Source of the DNA: Candidatus Saccharimonadales bacterium
GTDB lineage: Bacteria > Patescibacteriota > Saccharimonadia > Saccharimonadales > UBA4665
Direction: 5' to 3'
DNA length: 41,738 bases
NCBI GenBank assembly: GCA_036388415.1
Contig: DASVRW010000001.1
Location: forward strand, 1-41,738
Shown piece by piece: positions 2,980 through 39,584 of the stretch. The notes under the pieces were generated by a model. The model was not told where the DNA came from and made no database searches. It saw only the letters and a program-made list of their open reading frames with translations. Position 1 is the stretch's first letter. Each line of letters begins with the position of its first letter. Both the position numbers and the translations under genes were made by a program.

Positions 2980-3198
2980 ATGGCAGGAACACGATCTGGC
3001 GGCGAAGCAGCTGCTGCAACAAACAAGAAGAAGTATGGACCTGATTTTTACGCTCGCATCGGTGCGGCAGGTGGCAAAAAAGGCCGTAGTGGCGGCTTTG
3101 CTGCTGGCAAAGAAGGCCGCGAGCGCGCCCGCAAGTACGGTGCGATCGGCGGACGTTTGTCTCGACGCGGCAAATCCGAACTCGACGAAGCGGCATAG
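2980..3198 (+). CDS. KGG-repeat (YciG/GsiB-like) small basic protein, copy 1
   Basis: 72 residues, strongly basic, Gly/Ala/Arg/Lys-rich, with GG-K/R repeats (IGAAGGKKGRSGG, GAIGGRLSRRGK). These match the KGG stress-induced repeat family (PF10685). It is a close paralogue of the protein at 3434. An upstream in-frame ATG at 2974 is rejected: the Shine-Dalgarno AGGAGG (2967-2972) is only 1 nt from it but 7 nt from the ATG at 2980, and that start gives the same MAGT N-terminus as the paralogue. A small leader hairpin, TGAGGG (2928-2933) / CCCTCA (2947-2952), lies just before the Shine-Dalgarno. Function is unproven; a stress or nucleic-acid-associated role is inferred from the family and the charge. 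Confidence 0.88.
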   Translation: MAGTRSGGEAAAATNKKKYGPDFYARIGAAGGKKGRSGGFAAGKEGRERARKYGAIGGRLSRRGKSELDEAA

Positions 3199-3217
3199 GG
3201 TCGTAGCTCACACAATC

Positions 3218-3249
3218 AACCCCTCGAGAAATCGAGGGGTTTTGTATTT
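3218..3249 (+). terminator. Intrinsic terminator after KGG copy 1
   Basis: Perfect ten-bp stem AACCCCTCGA (3218-3227) / TCGAGGGGTT (3232-3241) with a GAAA tetraloop and a T-rich tail. Confidence 0.92.
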
Positions 3250-3304
3250 TATAGAGTCACTTAATCCAGTCAAGTTACCGAAAATAGCCATAAACAAATT
3301 ATAG

Positions 3305-3333
3305 TTGACAAGTAAACAATAGCGTGATATCAT
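3305..3333 (+). promoter_or_regulatory. Strong sigma70-type promoter for KGG copy 2
   Basis: Consensus -35 TTGACA (3305-3310), 17 bp spacer, TATCAT (3328-3333). This is the closest match to consensus in the window and implies high expression with a leader of about 95 nt. Confidence 0.82.
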
Positions 3334-8956: not shown

Positions 8957-9161
8957 CGGAAAAGTGTTGTGATTTCTCGCATCATCAAAATGTATAGAAC
9001 TGACTTGAGAGTTAAATATTTTATAGTTGGTATACCGGTCGGCTGATAGTATTTCAGGATTGAGTTGAGGCTTGAGGTGCGTGCATCGGATAACTCCCTG
9101 CGCGCGATCAAAATGTATTATTTATGCACTCACTTAATTAATTTATATGGAGAACCTGACA

Positions 9162-11054
9162 ATGTCACCAAGTTCAGTAGGACAGGAAACAATGCCTCGT
9201 CGCGTCAGCGAAACACAACCACCGCTCGCCGAATCGCAGCCTGACATATTAGTTACGGAGCCGACTGCGAGCGCAGAACAGACCTCGGAGCGTCCCTACA
9301 TATTCGGACCACGCATCGTGCAGGCTTTAGCTGCCGCCGAGCACGTCGCAAGCGGAGAAGAATATACGAGAACCGCTGCATTTGGAGACACAAAATCTGG
9401 TACTTACGGTGTCATAGACGTAGATGAAAACGCTAGGCGGGGGATCCGATATATCAAGAACTTTGGCCGAGATATTAGAAAATCTCTTCAATCGCCCGTT
9501 GACCCTGACAATCCCGAGGCCACGATGCGCCAAGCACTCGAAGAAAAATATGTTGGCTTGCACCGTCAGCCCAAAAATGAAGACATTTCGGTGGCAGCCG
9601 TCAAATTCTTTCAGCGCAACAGTGACAAGGGTGGCATACTCCAAGCAGTCATTGGGAGTCGCGGCAGCAACTACGTACTGCACGAGCAAAGGACGTCTCC
9701 GCAGACGCCACCCATCTCTGACATCGTGCATGATTCAGAAGTGCCGACCAATGAAATTCAGACATCGGTCAGGCCCGTCCGCCCCGGTGAGCGCATTATA
9801 ATAATTTCTAAGGCAGTGTTCGGTGCCCTAGGTGCTACCAGTTCGTCCGATCTCTTGAAAGATCTGGGAAAAATCCTGAAGGAAAATCCTGGTTCGAAAG
9901 ATGCCGCCCGCGCACTCGCTTCCCGCGTGCCCTCGAGAAGAGGGGCATCAGCAGTGGTGATCGACGTACCAGACGGCCCCGGCTATGTCGGTAATGACGC
10001 GAGCGAAGTATTCGAACCACAGCGAACCGGACTGCGCGCCAAGATGCTCGGCGGCATAGCAGTCCCTGCAACTGTCGGTAGTTTAATTAGTCGATGGCAG
10101 GCACGTGGCGCAGAGGCAGGCAAGCAGCACATGCTTGGACAGCCTCCACAAAAAGTTACGGGTATTGGACAGCCTCCAATTGTTCCACCAGCCGACAAGC
10201 CTATTAGACAGAAAGTGAAAGAAAGAGTTCAATTCGGTCCACAATATCTAGCGGCATCTGGTGCAACTTGGCTTGCTGCGCGTAGAACTGGCAGCACGGC
10301 GAGCGCCGAAACAAAAACCGAGAAGCGTCGATTTGGAAAGAAGGCTTTGATTGCTACTTTGATCGGTGGAATTTTGATCTACAAATTTGGTGAGAATTTT
10401 GTTGACTTCGGCGATGGTAAAGATCAAGGCTTAGACATTTTAGGTGCACCGCTTCCGACGACAGCAGATATTGGTCAGGGGGATAGCTCCGGTTATGACT
10501 TAAATCCGTTCAATCAAACAACACTCCTTAACGATGATCCCGCCAATCCGACCGTCAGTACAATTGATCGTGACCCTGATATCCTGTCGGCATTCTTTGA
10601 TGGCGACGGGTTTGACGGCGGTCTATTTACCAAAGACCCAGTAGTTGAGGTTACGGCTCCTAGAGTTAGTCCGCCAGTGGAAGTTTTGCCAGACAAAGAA
10701 ATCGTAGAAGTGCCGAAAATCGAAATCAAGGAACCATGGACTCCAGATGGTTTTGAAATAGCAAAAGGCGAAGGTCTGTTAGAAACCATTCACGACCAAG
10801 GACACGACCTTGTCGGTCATAAATTCAATAACGAAATGACCGAAAGTGTACTTCAAAATGTGCAAGACACATTTGGAAACAATATAATTGAGCTACCGAA
10901 GCACACTGGGCCAGATACGTACGTTGTTAACCAAGATTTGCGAATTGCATCTCCGGGCGAAGCGCATTGGCGCACCGAAGCTATTGAGCGTTTCATCCAC
11001 GACAATATCATTAAGGTTGCCGAAGAAACCAAGACACTTCAAAACGCTGCTTAG
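9162..11054 (+). CDS. Single-pass membrane protein with degenerate PP2C-like cytoplasmic domain
   Basis: 630 residues. After a disordered N-terminus, the stretch from about 65 to 270 follows the strand/helix order of a PPM/PP2C phosphatase. It ends with RIIIISKAVFGALGATSS...AARALASRVPSRRGASAVVIDV, like the PP2C tail in which DG-W-D and RDNATVVVV motifs normally occur. The metal-binding aspartates appear lost: the expected DG and D positions read SKAV and RRGAS, and the GDSR-like position reads GSRGS. A membrane span at about 394-411 (ALIATLIGGILIYKFG) is followed by a Pro/Asp-rich linker and a C-terminal domain of about 100 residues (PWTPDGFEIAKGEGLLETI...) predicted to lie outside. The start is the ATG at 9162, 9 nt after GGAG (9149-9152), not the in-frame ATG at 9147. 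It has no operon partner. The PP2C link is by eye. Confidence 0.7.
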   Translation: MSPSSVGQETMPRRVSETQPPLAESQPDILVTEPTASAEQTSERPYIFGPRIVQALAAAEHVASGEEYTRTAAFGDTKSGTYGVIDVDENARRGIRYIKNFGRDIRKSLQSPVDPDNPEATMRQALEEKYVGLHRQPKNEDISVAAVKFFQRNSDKGGILQAVIGSRGSNYVLHEQRTSPQTPPISDIVHDSEVPTNEIQTSVRPVRPGERIIIISKAVFGALGATSSSDLLKDLGKILKENPGSKDAARALASRVPSRRGASAVVIDVPDGPGYVGNDASEVFEPQRTGLRAKMLGGIAVPATVGSLISRWQARGAEAGKQHMLGQPPQKVTGIGQPPIVPPADKPIRQKVKERVQFGPQYLAASGATWLAARRTGSTASAETKTEKRRFGKKALIATLIGGILIYKFGENFVDFGDGKDQGLDILGAPLPTTADIGQGDSSGYDLNPFNQTTLLNDDPANPTVSTIDRDPDILSAFFDGDGFDGGLFTKDPVVEVTAPRVSPPVEVLPDKEIVEVPKIEIKEPWTPDGFEIAKGEGLLETIHDQGHDLVGHKFNNEMTESVLQNVQDTFGNNIIELPKHTGPDTYVVNQDLRIASPGEAHWRTEAIERFIHDNIIKVAEETKTLQNAA

Positions 11055-25151: not shown

Positions 25152-25180
25152 TTGACCATATATGATATAAAATATATACT
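25152..25180 (+). promoter_or_regulatory. Promoter of the helical unknown gene, leaderless
   Basis: TTGACC (25152-25157), 17 bp spacer, TATACT (25175-25180), then 8 nt to the ATG at 25189. It is one of the cleanest leaderless layouts in the window. Confidence 0.75.
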
Positions 25181-25188
25181 TGGAACTT

Positions 25189-25749
25189 ATGCAAACAAGG
25201 AGGGTTCCTATTTTACATACTCATCAAATGGCTTTGAAGCTTGCGCTTAAGGCCATAGCTCGTCTCGGTAGAATCGATATGGCGTCGGCTAAACGCATCA
25301 AGCGTCAAAACCCGCTGCTCGAGACAGAGATCCATATCGAAGAGGAACTGCTCAACCTGCAGGAGTCACTTGACACCTATCATACGGCTGGCGATACTCT
25401 CCGCAGCTACCCGACAATGCAGTCGCATTTCCTGCGTGAAAAGGAAAGTATCTTGCAACACTGCGTCGGCTTGGTGGCCCGCATGCTAGGAGGCCGTAAG
25501 CTGCCGTATAGCTATACGGCAAAAGACGCTGATCGTGCAGTCCGCCGGCTAATCCAGTTACTGGTTGAGGACGCGCGGCGCAGCGGCCGGCGAATTGACA
25601 ATGACATCATGGAAATATTCGTTCCATTCATGACGGTGCGTCAGCGCGTCAAAATGCGCCAATGGGGCATGGATCTGGTCGTCCAAGCATCGCAGCTGCC
25701 AAAGGTATACGATTTCGGTAATATGATGCTCCGCCGCGTCCGTCAATAG
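25189..25749 (+). CDS. Uncharacterised alpha-helical protein
   Basis: 186 residues, basic and almost wholly helical (HIEEELLNLQESLDTYHTAGDTL, KDADRAVRRLIQLLVEDARRSGRR, VRQRVKMRQWGMDLVVQASQ). There is no signal peptide, membrane span or recognised motif. The ATG at 25189 is set by the promoter. A perfect AAGGAGG at 25197-25203 lies inside the coding region just after the start, and could direct initiation at the ATG at 25228 (MALKLALKAIARLG), though its spacing of 24 nt is too long. Neighbours give no clue to function. Confidence 0.75.
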   Translation: MQTRRVPILHTHQMALKLALKAIARLGRIDMASAKRIKRQNPLLETEIHIEEELLNLQESLDTYHTAGDTLRSYPTMQSHFLREKESILQHCVGLVARMLGGRKLPYSYTAKDADRAVRRLIQLLVEDARRSGRRIDNDIMEIFVPFMTVRQRVKMRQWGMDLVVQASQLPKVYDFGNMMLRRVRQ

Positions 25750-25832
25750 ACGGGCTGCTGATTATTGCTTGCATTGAAAACTTGGATCAAGTAGCATGTA
25801 AGCATAAGTATAGTTAATAAGGTGTATTCCTG

Positions 25833-26903
25833 ATGGTACGTGCGGTACGAACTCTAACGGGCAAGAGTAAAAGGGTAATTGTAATGACGGTGATAGCGCT
25901 GGCTGTAGGCGTAGGTGGAAGCATTGCCTCCTTGCAGTCGCATGCGGAAACGCCATTTGCAACTGCGGAACCAGAAAATGGTACGCTGAGCGCTCCGGCA
26001 GTGGCCGTAAATGACGCGGCTGCTTCCAACGGCAAAGCAGTGCAGTTTGCGGTAGGCAGTGCTCCAGGTGCATGTAATGGCGCCCTCAATACGCCGGGCG
26101 GCCCCGACAGTGCCGGCGTCTGTTGGCCGGCAGCCTATAACACTGGCTATCCGCGCGGACTGCCAGGCGATACGCGTACGCCAGTGACTCTGACGCCGTA
26201 CACTGGGCTCTGTGATATCCGAACTGACAATCTAGTCATCGATTCTAAACTGTTAAACTGCGGCGGCATGTTGGTATATGCCCGTAATGTGACGATTAAG
26301 AACAGCAAAATTGTCGGGCATATCTTTACAAACTCTGCCACTGCCAGCCTGACGCTGATCGATACCGAAGTCGATGGCGGCTCTGGCCATGCGCGGTCGA
26401 TTGGGGTTAATAACGTTACCTTGCTGCGGGTGAATGTCTACGGCAACCAGCATACATTACAGTGTAGTGAAAATTGCACCGCGACAGATTCCTACATGCA
26501 CGACCAATATCCTGGTGGCCGTGACTTAGGATGGCATCAGAACAGTTTCCTGACAAACGGTGGCTCAAATCTCAATATGATCCACAACACTATGGGTTGC
26601 ACTGGTGGCTGTACTGCAGTTATTGGGCTTATACCTGACTACAATATATCTGGGTTTACTGCTGACCATAATCTGATCGTTGCCTCGCCAGACAGTAGCT
26701 ATTGTCTATACGGCGGCGGTAACTCTGGCAATAAACCAGGCGTTGCCAGTTCTATTGTATTTCGCAACAACGTTGTCCAGCGCGGTGCCAATGGCAAATG
26801 TGGCGCCTACGGACCAGTAACCTACTTCAACCCAAACTCACCTGGCAACCAGTGGGTTAACAATACCTGGTCAGATGGCAGTGTCCTGCCGTCAGCTAAT
26901 TAG
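25833..26903 (+). CDS. Exported right-handed beta-helix protein 1
   Basis: 356 residues. A basic start and hydrophobic span (about 14-34) form a signal anchor. Residues 38-73 are the shared juxtamembrane module (TPFATAEPENGTLSAP ... DAAASNGKAVQF) also found in three other exported proteins here. From about 130 to 345 come repeated short strands with Asn and hydrophobic ladders (VTIKNSKIVGHIFT, LTLIDTEVDGG, VTLLRVNVYGN, LNMIHNTMGC), typical of pectin-lyase-like parallel beta-helices. Several cysteines may form disulfides. No catalytic residues of polysaccharide lyases can be assigned; it may bind or cleave glycans. An AAGGTG Shine-Dalgarno lies 8 nt before the ATG. Protein 2 follows after 5 nt, so the two share an operon. 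Confidence 0.85.
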   Translation: MVRAVRTLTGKSKRVIVMTVIALAVGVGGSIASLQSHAETPFATAEPENGTLSAPAVAVNDAAASNGKAVQFAVGSAPGACNGALNTPGGPDSAGVCWPAAYNTGYPRGLPGDTRTPVTLTPYTGLCDIRTDNLVIDSKLLNCGGMLVYARNVTIKNSKIVGHIFTNSATASLTLIDTEVDGGSGHARSIGVNNVTLLRVNVYGNQHTLQCSENCTATDSYMHDQYPGGRDLGWHQNSFLTNGGSNLNMIHNTMGCTGGCTAVIGLIPDYNISGFTADHNLIVASPDSSYCLYGGGNSGNKPGVASSIVFRNNVVQRGANGKCGAYGPVTYFNPNSPGNQWVNNTWSDGSVLPSAN

Positions 26904-26908
26904 ACATT

Positions 26909-27946
26909 ATGAAGCGGCTACGTGCGAGACGACAAGTAATTACGGTAGCTGCAATTCTGCTTGTCAGTGCCGCGGGTACGATGTTCTATGTGCAGTCACG
27001 GGCTGCGACGCCACTGGTATCTGCTGAGCCGGAAGCTGGTACTATTAGTGCTCCAGCCGCCCGAATAAGCGATAATGCCGCGTCAGCTGGAGCGGCAGTC
27101 AAGTTTACGCCTGCCGTCGTATCGACGGCCAAGCCCTCAGCTGCCAACACTGGTGTACCGGCAGGTACGAGCCTGACGGTCGTCAGCGGTGATCAGGTAT
27201 ACAGCACGGCAAATCAGGTGATATCCAATGTGGATATACGCGGCTATGTGCAGATTACCGGCAAAAATGTTACTATTCGGAACTCAATTATCCGTGGCGG
27301 CATTAAGCCCTGCATTATGGGCAATGCCCAAAATTCGGCAGCTTTGTGGGTACGTGAAGACCTGGCGGCAACGGCTACGATTGAGAATGTGGAGATCAGC
27401 CCCAGCAACGCGACTGCCTGTATGGACGGTATTTGGGCGTCCAATAGCACGCTGACCCGCGTCAACGTCCACGGATCTGTTGATGGCATCAAAGCGCACA
27501 ACAATCTTCGGATAGAGGACAGTTATATACACGATCTCGCGTATTTTGCGTCTGATCCGAACCAGGGCGGCCGAGCGACGCATAATGACGGCGTCCAATC
27601 GTACCAGTGTAATTCCAACATTACCATTAACCATAATACGATCGACCTCAGTACTTCAAGCGGCGGTAACGCAGCTTACCAGATAACGCAGGACTATAGC
27701 AAAGCCTGCAGCAACATCGTCATCAGCAACAATTGGCTGGACGGCGGCAATTGCACGATTAACATCGCTCACAAGGTTCTCGCCAGTCTGACGGGTGTGT
27801 CGGTGACGGGCAACCGCTTCGGCCGTCATCAAGGATTTACGAACTGTACGGTGCTGCTGTCTACCAGATCAACGCTAACTGCGTATAGTGGAAATGTCTG
27901 GGACGATACCGGCTTACCGATTCCGAGTCCGTCGGTGCACGATTAG
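26909..27946 (+). CDS. Exported right-handed beta-helix protein 2
   Basis: 345 residues. Signal anchor at about 9-27, then the shared module at 32-67 (TPLVSAEPEAGTISAP ... DNAASAGAAVKF). The body (about 95-330) has beta-helix rungs: VISNVDIRGYVQITGKNVTI, ATIENVEISPSNATACMDG, STLTRVNVHGSVDGIKAHNN, ITINHNTIDLS, IVISNNWLDGG. It shares the V/I-N-V-H-G-S-x-D-G-x-K and ED-SYIHDLA...THNDG signatures with protein 3 and is a clear paralogue. The conserved H-x-DG pattern recurs at the same rung and could mark a ligand or active site, which is inference. It begins 5 nt after protein 1. Confidence 0.87.
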   Translation: MKRLRARRQVITVAAILLVSAAGTMFYVQSRAATPLVSAEPEAGTISAPAARISDNAASAGAAVKFTPAVVSTAKPSAANTGVPAGTSLTVVSGDQVYSTANQVISNVDIRGYVQITGKNVTIRNSIIRGGIKPCIMGNAQNSAALWVREDLAATATIENVEISPSNATACMDGIWASNSTLTRVNVHGSVDGIKAHNNLRIEDSYIHDLAYFASDPNQGGRATHNDGVQSYQCNSNITINHNTIDLSTSSGGNAAYQITQDYSKACSNIVISNNWLDGGNCTINIAHKVLASLTGVSVTGNRFGRHQGFTNCTVLLSTRSTLTAYSGNVWDDTGLPIPSPSVHD

Positions 27947-29403: not shown

Positions 29404-29409
29404 TATAAT
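29404..29409 (+). promoter_or_regulatory. -10 element of ileS
   Basis: Perfect TATAAT about 18 nt before the first T-box stem; the -35 is not clear. Confidence 0.55.
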
Positions 29410-29426
29410 AATAGGTAATACGTTTC

Positions 29427-29669
29427 CTGGGCCAGATCTGGCGCCTGGATGGAGTGGCTATCAACCACAAGACTCTGCCACGCGGAGTGCGTAGCTGGAA
29501 GAAATCTTGATGCCTACATGCAGATAGAAATTAGATCTGGCCGGGACAGCCCGTAATAGCAATAACAAAGCGCCACTGAAGAGTCATCTCTTCTGGAAGT
29601 CAGATGGTACCGCCCTCAAGCCGCATTGGCATCGGGGTTCTGGCATTCGGAAGAGGTGACTTTTTATTT
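29427..29669 (+). promoter_or_regulatory. T-box riboswitch leader of ileS
   Basis: The T-box core TGGTACCGCC lies at 29605-29614. It fits a canonical antiterminator: helix A1 GTCAGA (29599-29604) / TCTGGC (29639-29644), a seven-base bulge TGGTACC (29605-29611) whose UGGU would pair with the tRNA acceptor end, and helix A2 GCCC (29612-29615) / GGGT (29635-29638). A long Stem I is closed by GGCCAGATCT (29430-29439) / AGATCTGGCC (29533-29542). Isoleucine specifier candidates are ATC (29504-29506) and ATT (29530-29532). CTCTTC (29588-29593) can pair with GAAGAG at 29578-29583 (Stem III) or with GAAGAG at 29650-29655 as part of a 12-bp terminator stem followed by TTTTTATTT. Uncharged tRNA-Ile would thus raise ileS expression. 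Confidence 0.85.
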
Positions 29670-29728
29670 ACAAATCTACGCAAAATAGCACTATATCGCT
29701 GGTTTACGCCAGCAGCAAGGAGTAATGC

Positions 29729-36038: not shown

Positions 36039-36157
36039 ATGTTCAAACAAACACCTCAAAAACGAGAACTGTTCCAACGTGTCCTGACGCCTGTCGTACT
36101 GGGTGTATTGAGCGTGGCCAGCATCTTGTATGCTGGCTTCGCTCTATTCCCTCAAAC
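36008..36157 (+). repeat. Duplicated surface-gene 5' segment, copy 1
   Basis: The leader end and signal-anchor codons are nearly repeated at 41571-41722. The last 76 bp (36082-36157) are identical to 41647-41722, including third codon positions. Confidence 0.88.
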
Positions 36158-39100
36158 TGCCGCGGCTATTACGAGTAATACGATTAATTTTCAGGCTCGC
36201 CTGGAAGGTCCCGGGGGCAGTATTGCACCTGACGGTATGTATAATATCGAGTTTAATATCTACGCTACCAGTAGTGGCGGCGTATCGCTGTGGAATGAAG
36301 TTTATTATGACAGTAATGGATTAGCCGCAGGGAATGATAACAGAGTACAAGTGGTCAACGGCTACGTCAGTGTTTCACTCGGCTCCCAGACGGCTTTCCC
36401 AAGTACGATCAACTGGAACCAGAATCTCTACCTGACTATGAATGTGGGCGGGACAACACAGTCGTCCACACCGTCCTACGACGGTGAAATGAATCCTCGG
36501 CTCGCGCTTACCGCTGTGCCGTATGCCTTCCAGGCAGGGCAGTTGGCGCAGTTTAACAACGCGACTAACTTCACGAGCAACTTGACATTGGCTGCACCAA
36601 CTGGTGGTAACCAGACCTTCGTCGTGCAGGACCAGGGGGCGGCGGGGGTGTATACGTTGTGTGTGCAGGGAGGCAGTAGCTGTGGATCTGGATCTGGCAC
36701 AGACGCGAGTTATATACAAAATCAGAATGTTTCGCCGCAAACGGCAAACTTCAATATTTCCGGCAGCGGTACACTTGGTGGTTTGTTGACCGCCAATGCC
36801 GGACTGACAGTCGCAAGCGGTCCGGCCTTCATCAATTCGTCTAGTACGATCAATACTGCAATTACCATTGCTAACTTGGTAGCGGGGGGCGCTATAGGAA
36901 CGGCGGCAGCGACAGTAGACGTTGCAACGACCATCGCCATTACGCAGACGACAGCAGGGCAAACGCTGACGATTCCGGCTCCGACTATCACGACCGCCGG
37001 ACGGCTTTTGTACATAAGTAACACTGGTACTGTGAGCTTTACGGTCGGCGGGGTGAACACAATTCTTGTGCCAAACTCGACGACGACACTGGTATGGAAC
37101 GGCACGCAGTGGACGTCGGCCGGTGTTGACAGCAGCGGCGCAAACTACATACAAAACACGACTACTCAGCAAACTGCCAATTTCAACATAATGAGCAACA
37201 GCGCATCCAGTGTGGCGGCGATTATTTCTGGAGCTACCAGTCAATCGGCCGACATACTGCGGATTATTGGCGGTGGACAGTTCAGGACGACCATAACGAG
37301 TGCGGGGCAGTTTCAAATCGCACCCAATGCTGGAGGTGGCACAGGGACAGTCGCTATGGCGGTAACCGCTAATGGTACACAACCAGCATTGACCGTATCG
37401 AATGTCGGCAGTGGCCTCAAGGCAACATCCAGCGGCAATAACACGAACTCTGCTGTTGAAGGAGTTGGTACGGCCGGCGCTACAGCAGTCCTGGGCGGCA
37501 GCACTACCGGGATTGGTGTCCGTGGCACGTCTACCAGTGGTTTGGCGCTGAGCGCAAGCAGTAATAGTAGTAACTCGGCGTTTTTCCAAAGCGGCACGGC
37601 GACTAATACGGCCGCTACCACCGTATCGCGGGCCAACGGCGCGCAAACCGGTGATTTGCTGCAGTTACAAGCCAATAACGGCGAAGTCCTGACTAGATAT
37701 GATGCCAACGGAAATTACACGGGTAATGGTACGACTATTACCTTGAGCGCATTAGCGCCGGTAACTGGATTGAGTGCTACGCCAGCCGGCACCAGCTTCT
37801 ATTACAAGGTCAGCGCCCTTAATGCGCAGGGTGAATCTGGCGTAACGACAGAAGTCTCGTCCGGTGCTGGTGCCACTGTCAGCTGGACGGCTGCTGCCGG
37901 GGCTACCAGCTACCGGGTATATCGCGGTACGACACCAGGCGGACAGAATGTCTACATTACGGTGCCAGGCAACGCTACCAGTTTGGGTAACGCCGATACG
38001 ACTGCTACGAGCGGTTCGGGCAGTGCTCCCGGCAATGCCGCCAGTGGGTATACACTGTTTAGGTCGGTCAGTGCAGCTCAAACGGTAACGATGTCGGGCA
38101 ATAACACGACCATAGCGAGTACCAGCACAGTCGGAAATTTCAGCACTGCATTAACGGTGACGTCTGCCGGCGGCGGCTATGCAGTATATGGATATAATAC
38201 GGGCGGTATGGGTTTTGGCCAGAGCGGCGGCCAGGCTGGCGTATTTGGCGAATCTATTAACGGTGGCCGCGGTGTAGTGGGGCAGGCTGTCGGCACTGGC
38301 TCTATCGGCGTACTCGGGCACGCTGCCGGAAATTCCGGCATGTTCGTCACCCGGACATCCGGCAACGCTAATACGACGCTGGTGAGCCGGGCAGGACCAC
38401 AACAGACAGGCAACCTGCTGGATCTCCAGGCTGCGAACGGTGAAGTTTTCAGCAAATTCAGTGCCAGCGGCGCCCTGACATCGTACGGCACGACAACAAA
38501 TTTACTCGGACTGAACACGCCAGTTATAACGTTGTCGAGCGGTACTGCCGGAACCGCGTTTTATTACGTAGTGACAGCGACAAATGCTGCCGGTGAGACG
38601 GTCGCATCGAATACCATTGGCGCTACGACCAATACGGTCACGATTAGCTGGACACAAATACCAGGGGCGACTGGATACAAGATTTATCGAAATACGACGA
38701 GTTCGTTCGCCACTGGAACATTGCTGGCTGCTACCATCACAAATGGCACAACTACTAGCTATACTGGCACAGCCGGTGCTACGGGCGCGGGCGTTCCTCC
38801 GGCCACAACGACTGGCACGAAGCTGGCCGTGCAGGGGTGGTCGGGTCAATCTGGAAATGTATTCGAACTTATAAATTCTGCAGGTACCGTGGTAAGCAGT
38901 TTTAATACTGCAGGCGGCTTAACGGCGAGTAGTATTACCTTACAAAACAGCACCAACGCAAATACAGTCACCCTAGCTTCGAGTGCTACAAGTGCCAGCT
39001 ATACGCTGACATTACCAATGGCTATCGGCAGTGCAGGCCAGTGTTTGTCCATTGTGTCGGTCGTATCGGGCAATGCGCAGCTTGGATATTCGAATTGTTC

Positions 39101-39584
39101 AGGCGGCGGCGGAGCAATACGTCGAACGACACTTGTACCACACTATACAGGTGCAATAACCAGGGCTGATGGCAGTGATAACAGCGGCACTATGTCAACG
39201 AATTATGACGCTGCGAACGTGCACTCATATTACAATTGGACGAGTACCGCGGGTACGCTCAATGACAATGAGGTAGTTGTCCGCAGCGCCATTCCGAGCG
39301 ATTATATGAGCAATTTTGGTTCGTTTAAGATATGGACTTATGGTACGTCAAACTTGCCGGCAGACAACGATATAATCATCACTATCAAAGACGCTGCGGG
39401 GACGACATGCACAAATGCCGTATCGCTATTACCAGGCACTGCCAATACCTGGACGCAACAAACGGTCACCCTGAGCGGCTGTACCTACGCTGTCAATGAT
39501 CTCATCACAGCTGTAATCCGTATGGCTTCCAGATCAAATAGCAACGTGCGAATAGGTGAAATAACGTATGAGTATACGAATTAG
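36039..39584 (+). CDS. Giant exported tail-fibre/FN3-like surface protein
   Basis: 1181 residues. Residues 1-45 form a signal anchor (VVLGVLSVASILYAGFALF). Residues about 46-170 form a beta-rich head domain (INFQARLEGPGGSIAPDGMYNIEF...) of a type seen in CPR cell-surface and phage-tail-like proteins. Low-complexity Thr/Ser/Ala/Gly/Asn beta-strand repeats follow, with two YIQN...TANFNI units. Two homologous blocks (about 520-660 and 770-910) each contain a QTGxLLxLQAxNGEV unit and a fibronectin III-like domain (GATSYRVYRGTT and GATGYKIYRNTT). The C-terminal roughly 140 residues resemble a jelly-roll tip. No enzyme motif is visible, so an adhesin or host-contact fibre is inferred. It has weak start signals and no Shine-Dalgarno. 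Long antisense frames inside it are composition artefacts. Confidence 0.85.
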   Translation: MFKQTPQKRELFQRVLTPVVLGVLSVASILYAGFALFPQTAAAITSNTINFQARLEGPGGSIAPDGMYNIEFNIYATSSGGVSLWNEVYYDSNGLAAGNDNRVQVVNGYVSVSLGSQTAFPSTINWNQNLYLTMNVGGTTQSSTPSYDGEMNPRLALTAVPYAFQAGQLAQFNNATNFTSNLTLAAPTGGNQTFVVQDQGAAGVYTLCVQGGSSCGSGSGTDASYIQNQNVSPQTANFNISGSGTLGGLLTANAGLTVASGPAFINSSSTINTAITIANLVAGGAIGTAAATVDVATTIAITQTTAGQTLTIPAPTITTAGRLLYISNTGTVSFTVGGVNTILVPNSTTTLVWNGTQWTSAGVDSSGANYIQNTTTQQTANFNIMSNSASSVAAIISGATSQSADILRIIGGGQFRTTITSAGQFQIAPNAGGGTGTVAMAVTANGTQPALTVSNVGSGLKATSSGNNTNSAVEGVGTAGATAVLGGSTTGIGVRGTSTSGLALSASSNSSNSAFFQSGTATNTAATTVSRANGAQTGDLLQLQANNGEVLTRYDANGNYTGNGTTITLSALAPVTGLSATPAGTSFYYKVSALNAQGESGVTTEVSSGAGATVSWTAAAGATSYRVYRGTTPGGQNVYITVPGNATSLGNADTTATSGSGSAPGNAASGYTLFRSVSAAQTVTMSGNNTTIASTSTVGNFSTALTVTSAGGGYAVYGYNTGGMGFGQSGGQAGVFGESINGGRGVVGQAVGTGSIGVLGHAAGNSGMFVTRTSGNANTTLVSRAGPQQTGNLLDLQAANGEVFSKFSASGALTSYGTTTNLLGLNTPVITLSSGTAGTAFYYVVTATNAAGETVASNTIGATTNTVTISWTQIPGATGYKIYRNTTSSFATGTLLAATITNGTTTSYTGTAGATGAGVPPATTTGTKLAVQGWSGQSGNVFELINSAGTVVSSFNTAGGLTASSITLQNSTNANTVTLASSATSASYTLTLPMAIGSAGQCLSIVSVVSGNAQLGYSNCSGGGGAIRRTTLVPHYTGAITRADGSDNSGTMSTNYDAANVHSYYNWTSTAGTLNDNEVVVRSAIPSDYMSNFGSFKIWTYGTSNLPADNDIIITIKDAAGTTCTNAVSLLPGTANTWTQQTVTLSGCTYAVNDLITAVIRMASRSNSNVRIGEITYEYTN

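Follow-up and report, generated by a model that had tools for sequence, protein, structure and literature searches.

A probable transcriptional T-box upstream of ileS in Saccharibacteria in which Stem III appears to act as antiterminator against a nested terminator

The window (the whole stretch of DNA that was analysed, 41,738 nucleotides in length) comes from Candidatus Saccharimonadales bacterium, the genome of which spans 1.14 Mb in two contigs. The contig begins inside a 23S rRNA gene that is followed by a 5S rRNA gene (positions 1-743), and several long open reading frames without a Pfam match are found at 9147-11054, 25180-27946 and 36039-39584, one of which (1181 amino acids) lies downstream of ileS. 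The ileS gene itself is preceded by a Shine-Dalgarno (SD)-like motif and by a structured leader (Table 1). Because no sigma-70 promoter pair passed a standard scan of the window leader, the TATAAT box ahead of it is put forward only as a probable -10 element.

Table 1. Features of the ileS leader and of its immediate surroundings, in window coordinates
Feature	Position	Strand	Basis
Probable -10 element, TATAAT	29404..29409	+	sequence; TATAAT/TACAAT-like boxes upstream of Stem I in relatives
T-box leader, Stem I through antiterminator (model R1 match)	29438..29645	+	cmsearch, 70.5 bits, E 4e-22
Ultrashort Stem I hairpin, specifier loop CUAUCAA; AUC (Ile) at 29460-29462	29454..29468	+	alignment and pair map
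Additional hairpin inserted in Stem I	29472..29488	+	sequence; comparison with L005 (same genus), which also has the hairpin
Stem II; S-turn strands AAGAA 29499-29503 and AUUAGAU 29530-29536	29495..29540	+	pair map
Stem IIA/B pseudoknot region, putative, F-box-like CCCGUAAU	29541..29561	+	sequence motif
Purine string AAGCG (RRRxG), 5' of Stem III	29568..29572	+	motif of PMC7583486
Stem III, 29573-29575/29594-29596 and 29578-29583/29588-29593	29573..29596	+	constrained fold
Terminator 5' arm (T5') with core at 29582-29593; includes the loop and the 3' strand of Stem III	29582..29597	+	folds
Antiterminator: A1 29599-29604/29639-29644; bulge UGGUACC 29605-29611; A2 29612-29616/29634-29638, first pair G-U	29599..29644	+	constrained fold, covariation, pair map
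Terminator 3' arm (T3'); core GAAGAGGUGACU 29650-29661	29646..29661	+	folds, duplex energy
U-tract TTTTTATTT	29661..29669	+	sequence
SD-like AAGGAG upstream of ileS	29717-29722	+	sequence
ileS, isoleucyl-tRNA synthetase, 1014 aa	29729..32773	+	Pfam PF00133 E 5.8e-115 and Anticodon_1; 62-76% identity to Saccharibacteria IleS

The leader was matched by a covariance model ('R1') trained on 11 Saccharibacteria ileS leaders, the window being excluded from the training; a search of the window's own genome with R1 returns a single site, the ileS leader, and the folding energy of that leader departs from chance with a z value of -4.4. A search of plasmids by blastn with the leader as query gave no match. 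The original prediction, which had been made from the letters of the DNA and which proposed a T-box at this position, advised a check against the Rfam T-box model; that check came back empty, the window leader having no T-box match at the gathering threshold or at E values up to 10. That the leader is a T-box is close to certain.

Its Stem I is reduced to one 4-bp hairpin with a 7-nt loop, in which the specifier AUC matches the amino acid of the downstream ileS, and the long Stem I with an apical tRNA-elbow module is absent from the window. The remaining T-box elements are present: a Stem II S-turn, a IIA/B region, a Stem III accompanied by the RRRxG...AA purines, and, between A1 and A2, a UGGN bulge complementary to the NCCA end of tRNA. 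IleS was located in 93 genomes of the window's family, and R1 gave 90 matches in 99 sources; most of the first 30 leaders display a conserved GGATGGTACC core some 60-130 nt before ileS, together with a hairpin that has an ATC loop. The AUC specifier is present in the Stem I loop of 83 of 87 leaders, 75 of which can be parsed with a U-tract and form the basis of the layout counts given below; within those 75, a looser purine-string pattern is found in 70, and the first A2 pair is most often G-U (40/75). Over 58 leaders outside the training set, the Stem I hairpin (99.6% paired) and lower Stem II (100%) both show covariation, the antiterminator is paired at 100% (helix 7) and 95.8% (helix 8), and the Stem IIA/B helix is the weakest of the leader (71%).

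The cognate tRNA had to be sought elsewhere. No tRNA-Ile(GAU) is found among the 40 tRNAs in the contigs of the window genome, from which the 16S gene and the 16S-23S spacer (with its spacer tRNAs) are also missing, and the complete genome of a congener was used because of this absence. There, tRNA-Ile(GAU) lies between 16S and 23S, carries A73 and ends in A-CCA; this tRNA fits both the AUC specifier and the UGGU of the bulge.

The central feature of the leader is the manner in which its terminator is arranged. The arms at 29582-29593 and 29650-29661 are fully complementary over 12 bp (with one G-U pair), are followed directly by TTTTT, and flank A1, the bulge and A2, so that the antiterminator is nested inside the terminator stem, as had been claimed from the start. 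The competing strand, CTCTTC at 29588-29593, can pair either with GAAGAG at 29578-29583 (Stem III) or with GAAGAG at 29650-29655, again in agreement with the original prediction; only the extent of Stem III had been underestimated, since CCA at 29573-29575 also pairs with UGG at 29594-29596. Folding of the leader, a further check that had been suggested, recovers both states. When T3' is blocked, Stem III and the antiterminator form together with the 7-nt bulge open (-26.8 kcal/mol), and when the 3' part folds freely a single long hairpin results (T5'-[A1-bulge-A2-A2'-A1']-T3'; -48.1 kcal/mol), at the tip of which the antiterminator is intact. The predicted difference between the terminated ('OFF') and the read-through ('ON') state in the window is -21.5 kcal/mol, all of these state energies being minimum-free-energy estimates for the RNA alone, computed with neither tRNA nor cotranscriptional kinetics. 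The T5'/T3' duplex has a calculated energy of -25.6 to -25.8 kcal/mol, as compared to about -7.4 kcal/mol with a shuffled T3'.

This layout recurs in most relatives. T3' pairs upstream of A1 in 67 of the 75 parsed Saccharibacteria leaders; relatives with a conventional overlapping terminator, which the original prediction had named as the observation that would speak against it, amount to a minority (six gut leaders and L102). Within the 67 nested leaders, the 3' strand of Stem III lies within T5' in 62, and A1/A2 with an open bulge are retained in the OFF fold in 64. OFF is the more stable state in all leaders (by a mean of 12.0 kcal/mol), and the default state would therefore be OFF; since A1/A2 persist in the OFF fold, it would be Stem III, and not A1/A2, that excludes the terminator. 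On these folds, the role of antiterminator would seem to fall to Stem III.

Covariation in homologous leaders, also proposed as a check, bears this structure out. In the 58 leaders that had not been used for training, pairing extends to 91.8% of cells (67.3% in shuffles), the covariation score is 0.666 (0.234 in shuffles, and 0.05-0.14 for slid structures) and two-sided changes occur at 37 of 38 pairs, in an alignment that leans towards the structure because it was fitted to the model, the margin nonetheless being large. The strand that Stem III shares with the terminator is paired in both states in 432 of 558 cells, with three strands changing together (at position -8, for example, the triple flips are (T,A,A) 15 times and (A,T,T) 10 times), in a table that is built on predicted folds and hence is partly circular. 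The independent part of that test lies in the T5'/T3' duplexes, for which the energy is -15.4 kcal/mol for a leader's own pair of arms, -8.4 kcal/mol for cross pairs and -5.7 kcal/mol with a shuffled T3'. The elements, their mutually exclusive pairings and the conservation of both are thus documented by sequence and by comparison of leaders, and the comparisons lend strong support to the nested Stem III/terminator switch.

The alternative that survives best, although it is an unlikely one, holds that the nested hairpin is a constitutive attenuator, with Stem III serving only as a pausing or stacking element and with little control by tRNA. The great stability of the OFF state in the window is what such an attenuator would display; yet the Stem III helix by itself shows strong covariation (94.9% paired, with two-sided changes at 8/8 pairs), its 3' strand being at the same time complementary to T3', and an attenuator of this type would need neither a specifier nor a T-box bulge, both of which are conserved.

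Less probable still is a conventional T-box, in which a hairpin further downstream would share the 3' strands of A1 and A2 and the nested pairing would be incidental. In characterised transcriptional T-boxes the 5' strand of the terminator is indeed formed by the A1 and A2 3' strands (PMC7583486, PMC10907184); the original prediction was right that the known overlapping layout differs from that of the window, and wrong in taking the T-box strand to be the shared one. The conventional layout does occur among relatives: T3' pairs with A1' in the gut Saccharibacteria leaders L101, L103, L106, L107, L110 and L111 and in L102, such overlap is seen at 25 of 84 T-box loci of other Patescibacteria and is used by many T-boxes outside the window's order, and it is found in all three of the viral-contig T-boxes which, alone among those taken as outside controls, passed the Rfam cut-off. 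In the window, however, T5' lies upstream of A1, and the best hairpin that can be drawn from A2'/A1' up to the U-tract reaches only -3.4 kcal/mol, on which account a conventional terminator was rejected in favor of the nested duplex (-25.8 kcal/mol), the complementarity of which is maintained over 62 distinct leaders. A standard terminator scan of the window leader found no terminator; a scan of this kind misses the nested one because it limits the loop to 3-8 nt, and the nested loop exceeds 50 nt. Equally improbable is a translational T-box of the kind known from Actinobacteria, where Stem I is ultrashort, in which the T3' hairpin would affect mRNA folding or stability instead of termination. 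Most translational T-boxes are described as having an ultrashort Stem I (PMC7583486), and one relative (L029) has no U-tract and may be of that type. In the window, however, TTTTTATTT follows directly upon the hairpin, and the SD is situated some 55 nt beyond it, clear of the predicted switch stems and with no sequestrator masking it; 75 of the 87 leaders can be parsed with a U-tract.

Several leaders depart from the nested Stem III layout. In a FastTree phylogeny of IleS, the six gut leaders form one clade placed among nested-terminator leaders, which fits a change from nested to conventional layout inside Saccharibacteria, the tree by itself giving no direction. A clear Stem III is lacking in L010, L084 and L089, the T5' of which is AAGUCC(C), a stretch that belongs to the purine string; with L172, L208 and L228 they make up a set of nested terminators that lack Stem III and use the conserved purine string (AAGNNCC) as their 5' arm. 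A third layout is seen in L231 and L232, where T3' pairs with the A1 5' strand and an upstream AAAC, displacing A1' rather than Stem III. The ileS T-box of L029 (leader at 3146-3320, - strand) may be a translational switch, given that UCCGGC of its A1' is complementary to a GCCGGA that immediately precedes the SD (AGAGAAGGAG). In L003, L011, L014, L021 and L023 several hundred bases separate the T-box from the downstream ileS, and one or two other genes occupy the interval, which suggests that those genes are co-transcribed under isoleucine control.

T-boxes are also known from Chloroflexi, Deinococcus-Thermus and some Deltaproteobacteria. The original prediction had described them as little discussed outside Firmicutes and Actinobacteria; for Patescibacteria this holds for the literature, in that no relevant open-access paper was found on T-boxes in Patescibacteria, Saccharibacteria, Parcubacteria or candidate phyla (an earlier mention elsewhere being possible), but in the genomes T-boxes are not rare, R1 matches occurring in 126 of 380 sampled across the phylum. 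Of 50 downstream open reading frames tested, 48 match families (ileS, valS, aspS of both the discriminating and non-discriminating kinds, leuS, thrS, tyrS, aroE and hisG) and two are without a match. R1-family T-boxes of other Patescibacteria (L187-L246) precede valS, aspS/asnS-type genes, leuS, thrS, tyrS, aroE and hisG, and some of the valS copies have GUC in the specifier loop. Automatic terminator classes are rough outside Saccharibacteria (L031 is called nested or 'overlap5', and L010 overlap or nested, depending on the run), and no strong claim is therefore made there. Relatives score below the Rfam RF00230 gathering score of 93 bits (L102, 66.6; L110, 50.2; L101, 47.4; L006, 36.1; L025, 36.0), and with the window leader returning nothing from either Rfam or the terminator scan, it appears that standard RNA models and terminator finders overlook such Patescibacteria T-boxes.

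From these pairings we infer how tRNA would be bound and in which direction, and by what kinetic steps, the leader would respond. Stem III and then A1/A2 would fold as RNA polymerase leaves the leader. Uncharged tRNA-Ile would pair at two places, its anticodon binding the AUC of the Stem I loop and its ACCA terminus the UGGU of the bulge, and by doing so would lock the discriminator (the purine string, Stem III and A1/A2), such that the strand at 29588-29596 stays in Stem III, no terminator forms and ileS is transcribed by tRNA-dependent read-through, or antitermination. With charged tRNA or none, Stem III would be left unlocked, whereupon the emerging T3' would zip on just below A1, invade Stem III and then take its loop (AGUCAU); the outcome would be a long hairpin that keeps A1/A2 folded at the tip and is followed by the U-tract, and transcription would stop. 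The reading that ileS is controlled by a transcriptional T-box for tRNA-Ile, with an ultrashort Stem I and with Stem III as the real antiterminator, is assigned a probability of roughly 0.86. It is also likely, if by a slightly smaller measure, that this is a distinct expression platform, dominant in Saccharibacteria ileS, in which A1/A2 are present in both states, Stem III antiterminates and an ultrashort Stem I acts on transcription, and that it belongs to a set of Patescibacteria T-boxes which spans the phylum and has apparently gone undescribed.

What role Stem III plays in T-boxes has been termed unclear (PMC6197855), and no description of a Stem III/terminator arrangement was found in open-access T-box papers. 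As one arm of the predicted switch, Stem III of this family would offer a clean system in which to test that role. The Saccharibacteria family would break two working rules, namely that an ultrashort Stem I accompanies translational control and that antiterminator and terminator have the 3' strands of A1/A2 in common, and the wider set suggests that aminoacyl-tRNA synthetases are regulated by tRNA sensing throughout the reduced, host-dependent Patescibacteria.

Set beside known systems, the window leader resembles the class I T-box (RF00230; B. subtilis glyQS and tyrS) as a tRNA-sensing leader of an aminoacyl-tRNA synthetase gene with an intrinsic terminator as its output, and shares with it the Stem II S-turn, a Stem III with purine string and A1/A2 with the UGGN bulge. 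In contrast to the long class I Stem I with its elbow-binding apical module (PMC7583486), the window has a single-hairpin Stem I; and whereas the A1/A2 3' strands of class I constitute the terminator 5' arm, A1/A2 of the window are enclosed in the loop of the terminator, for which Stem III is the competing helix. The class II ultrashort ileS T-box of Actinobacteria (M. tuberculosis, N. farcinica), for which the TBDB model search was confined to that phylum (PMC7778990), is similar in gene, amino acid and short Stem I, and in having a Stem II S-turn and IIA/B region that support the tRNA contacts otherwise made by the Stem I apex (PMC7583486, PMC10651847), but its output is SD sequestration and that of the window would be intrinsic termination. 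Closest of all are the T-boxes of the gut Saccharibacteria, which have the same gene, aptamer and model family as the window, and in which, unlike the window, T3' pairs with the A1' strand in the textbook overlap.
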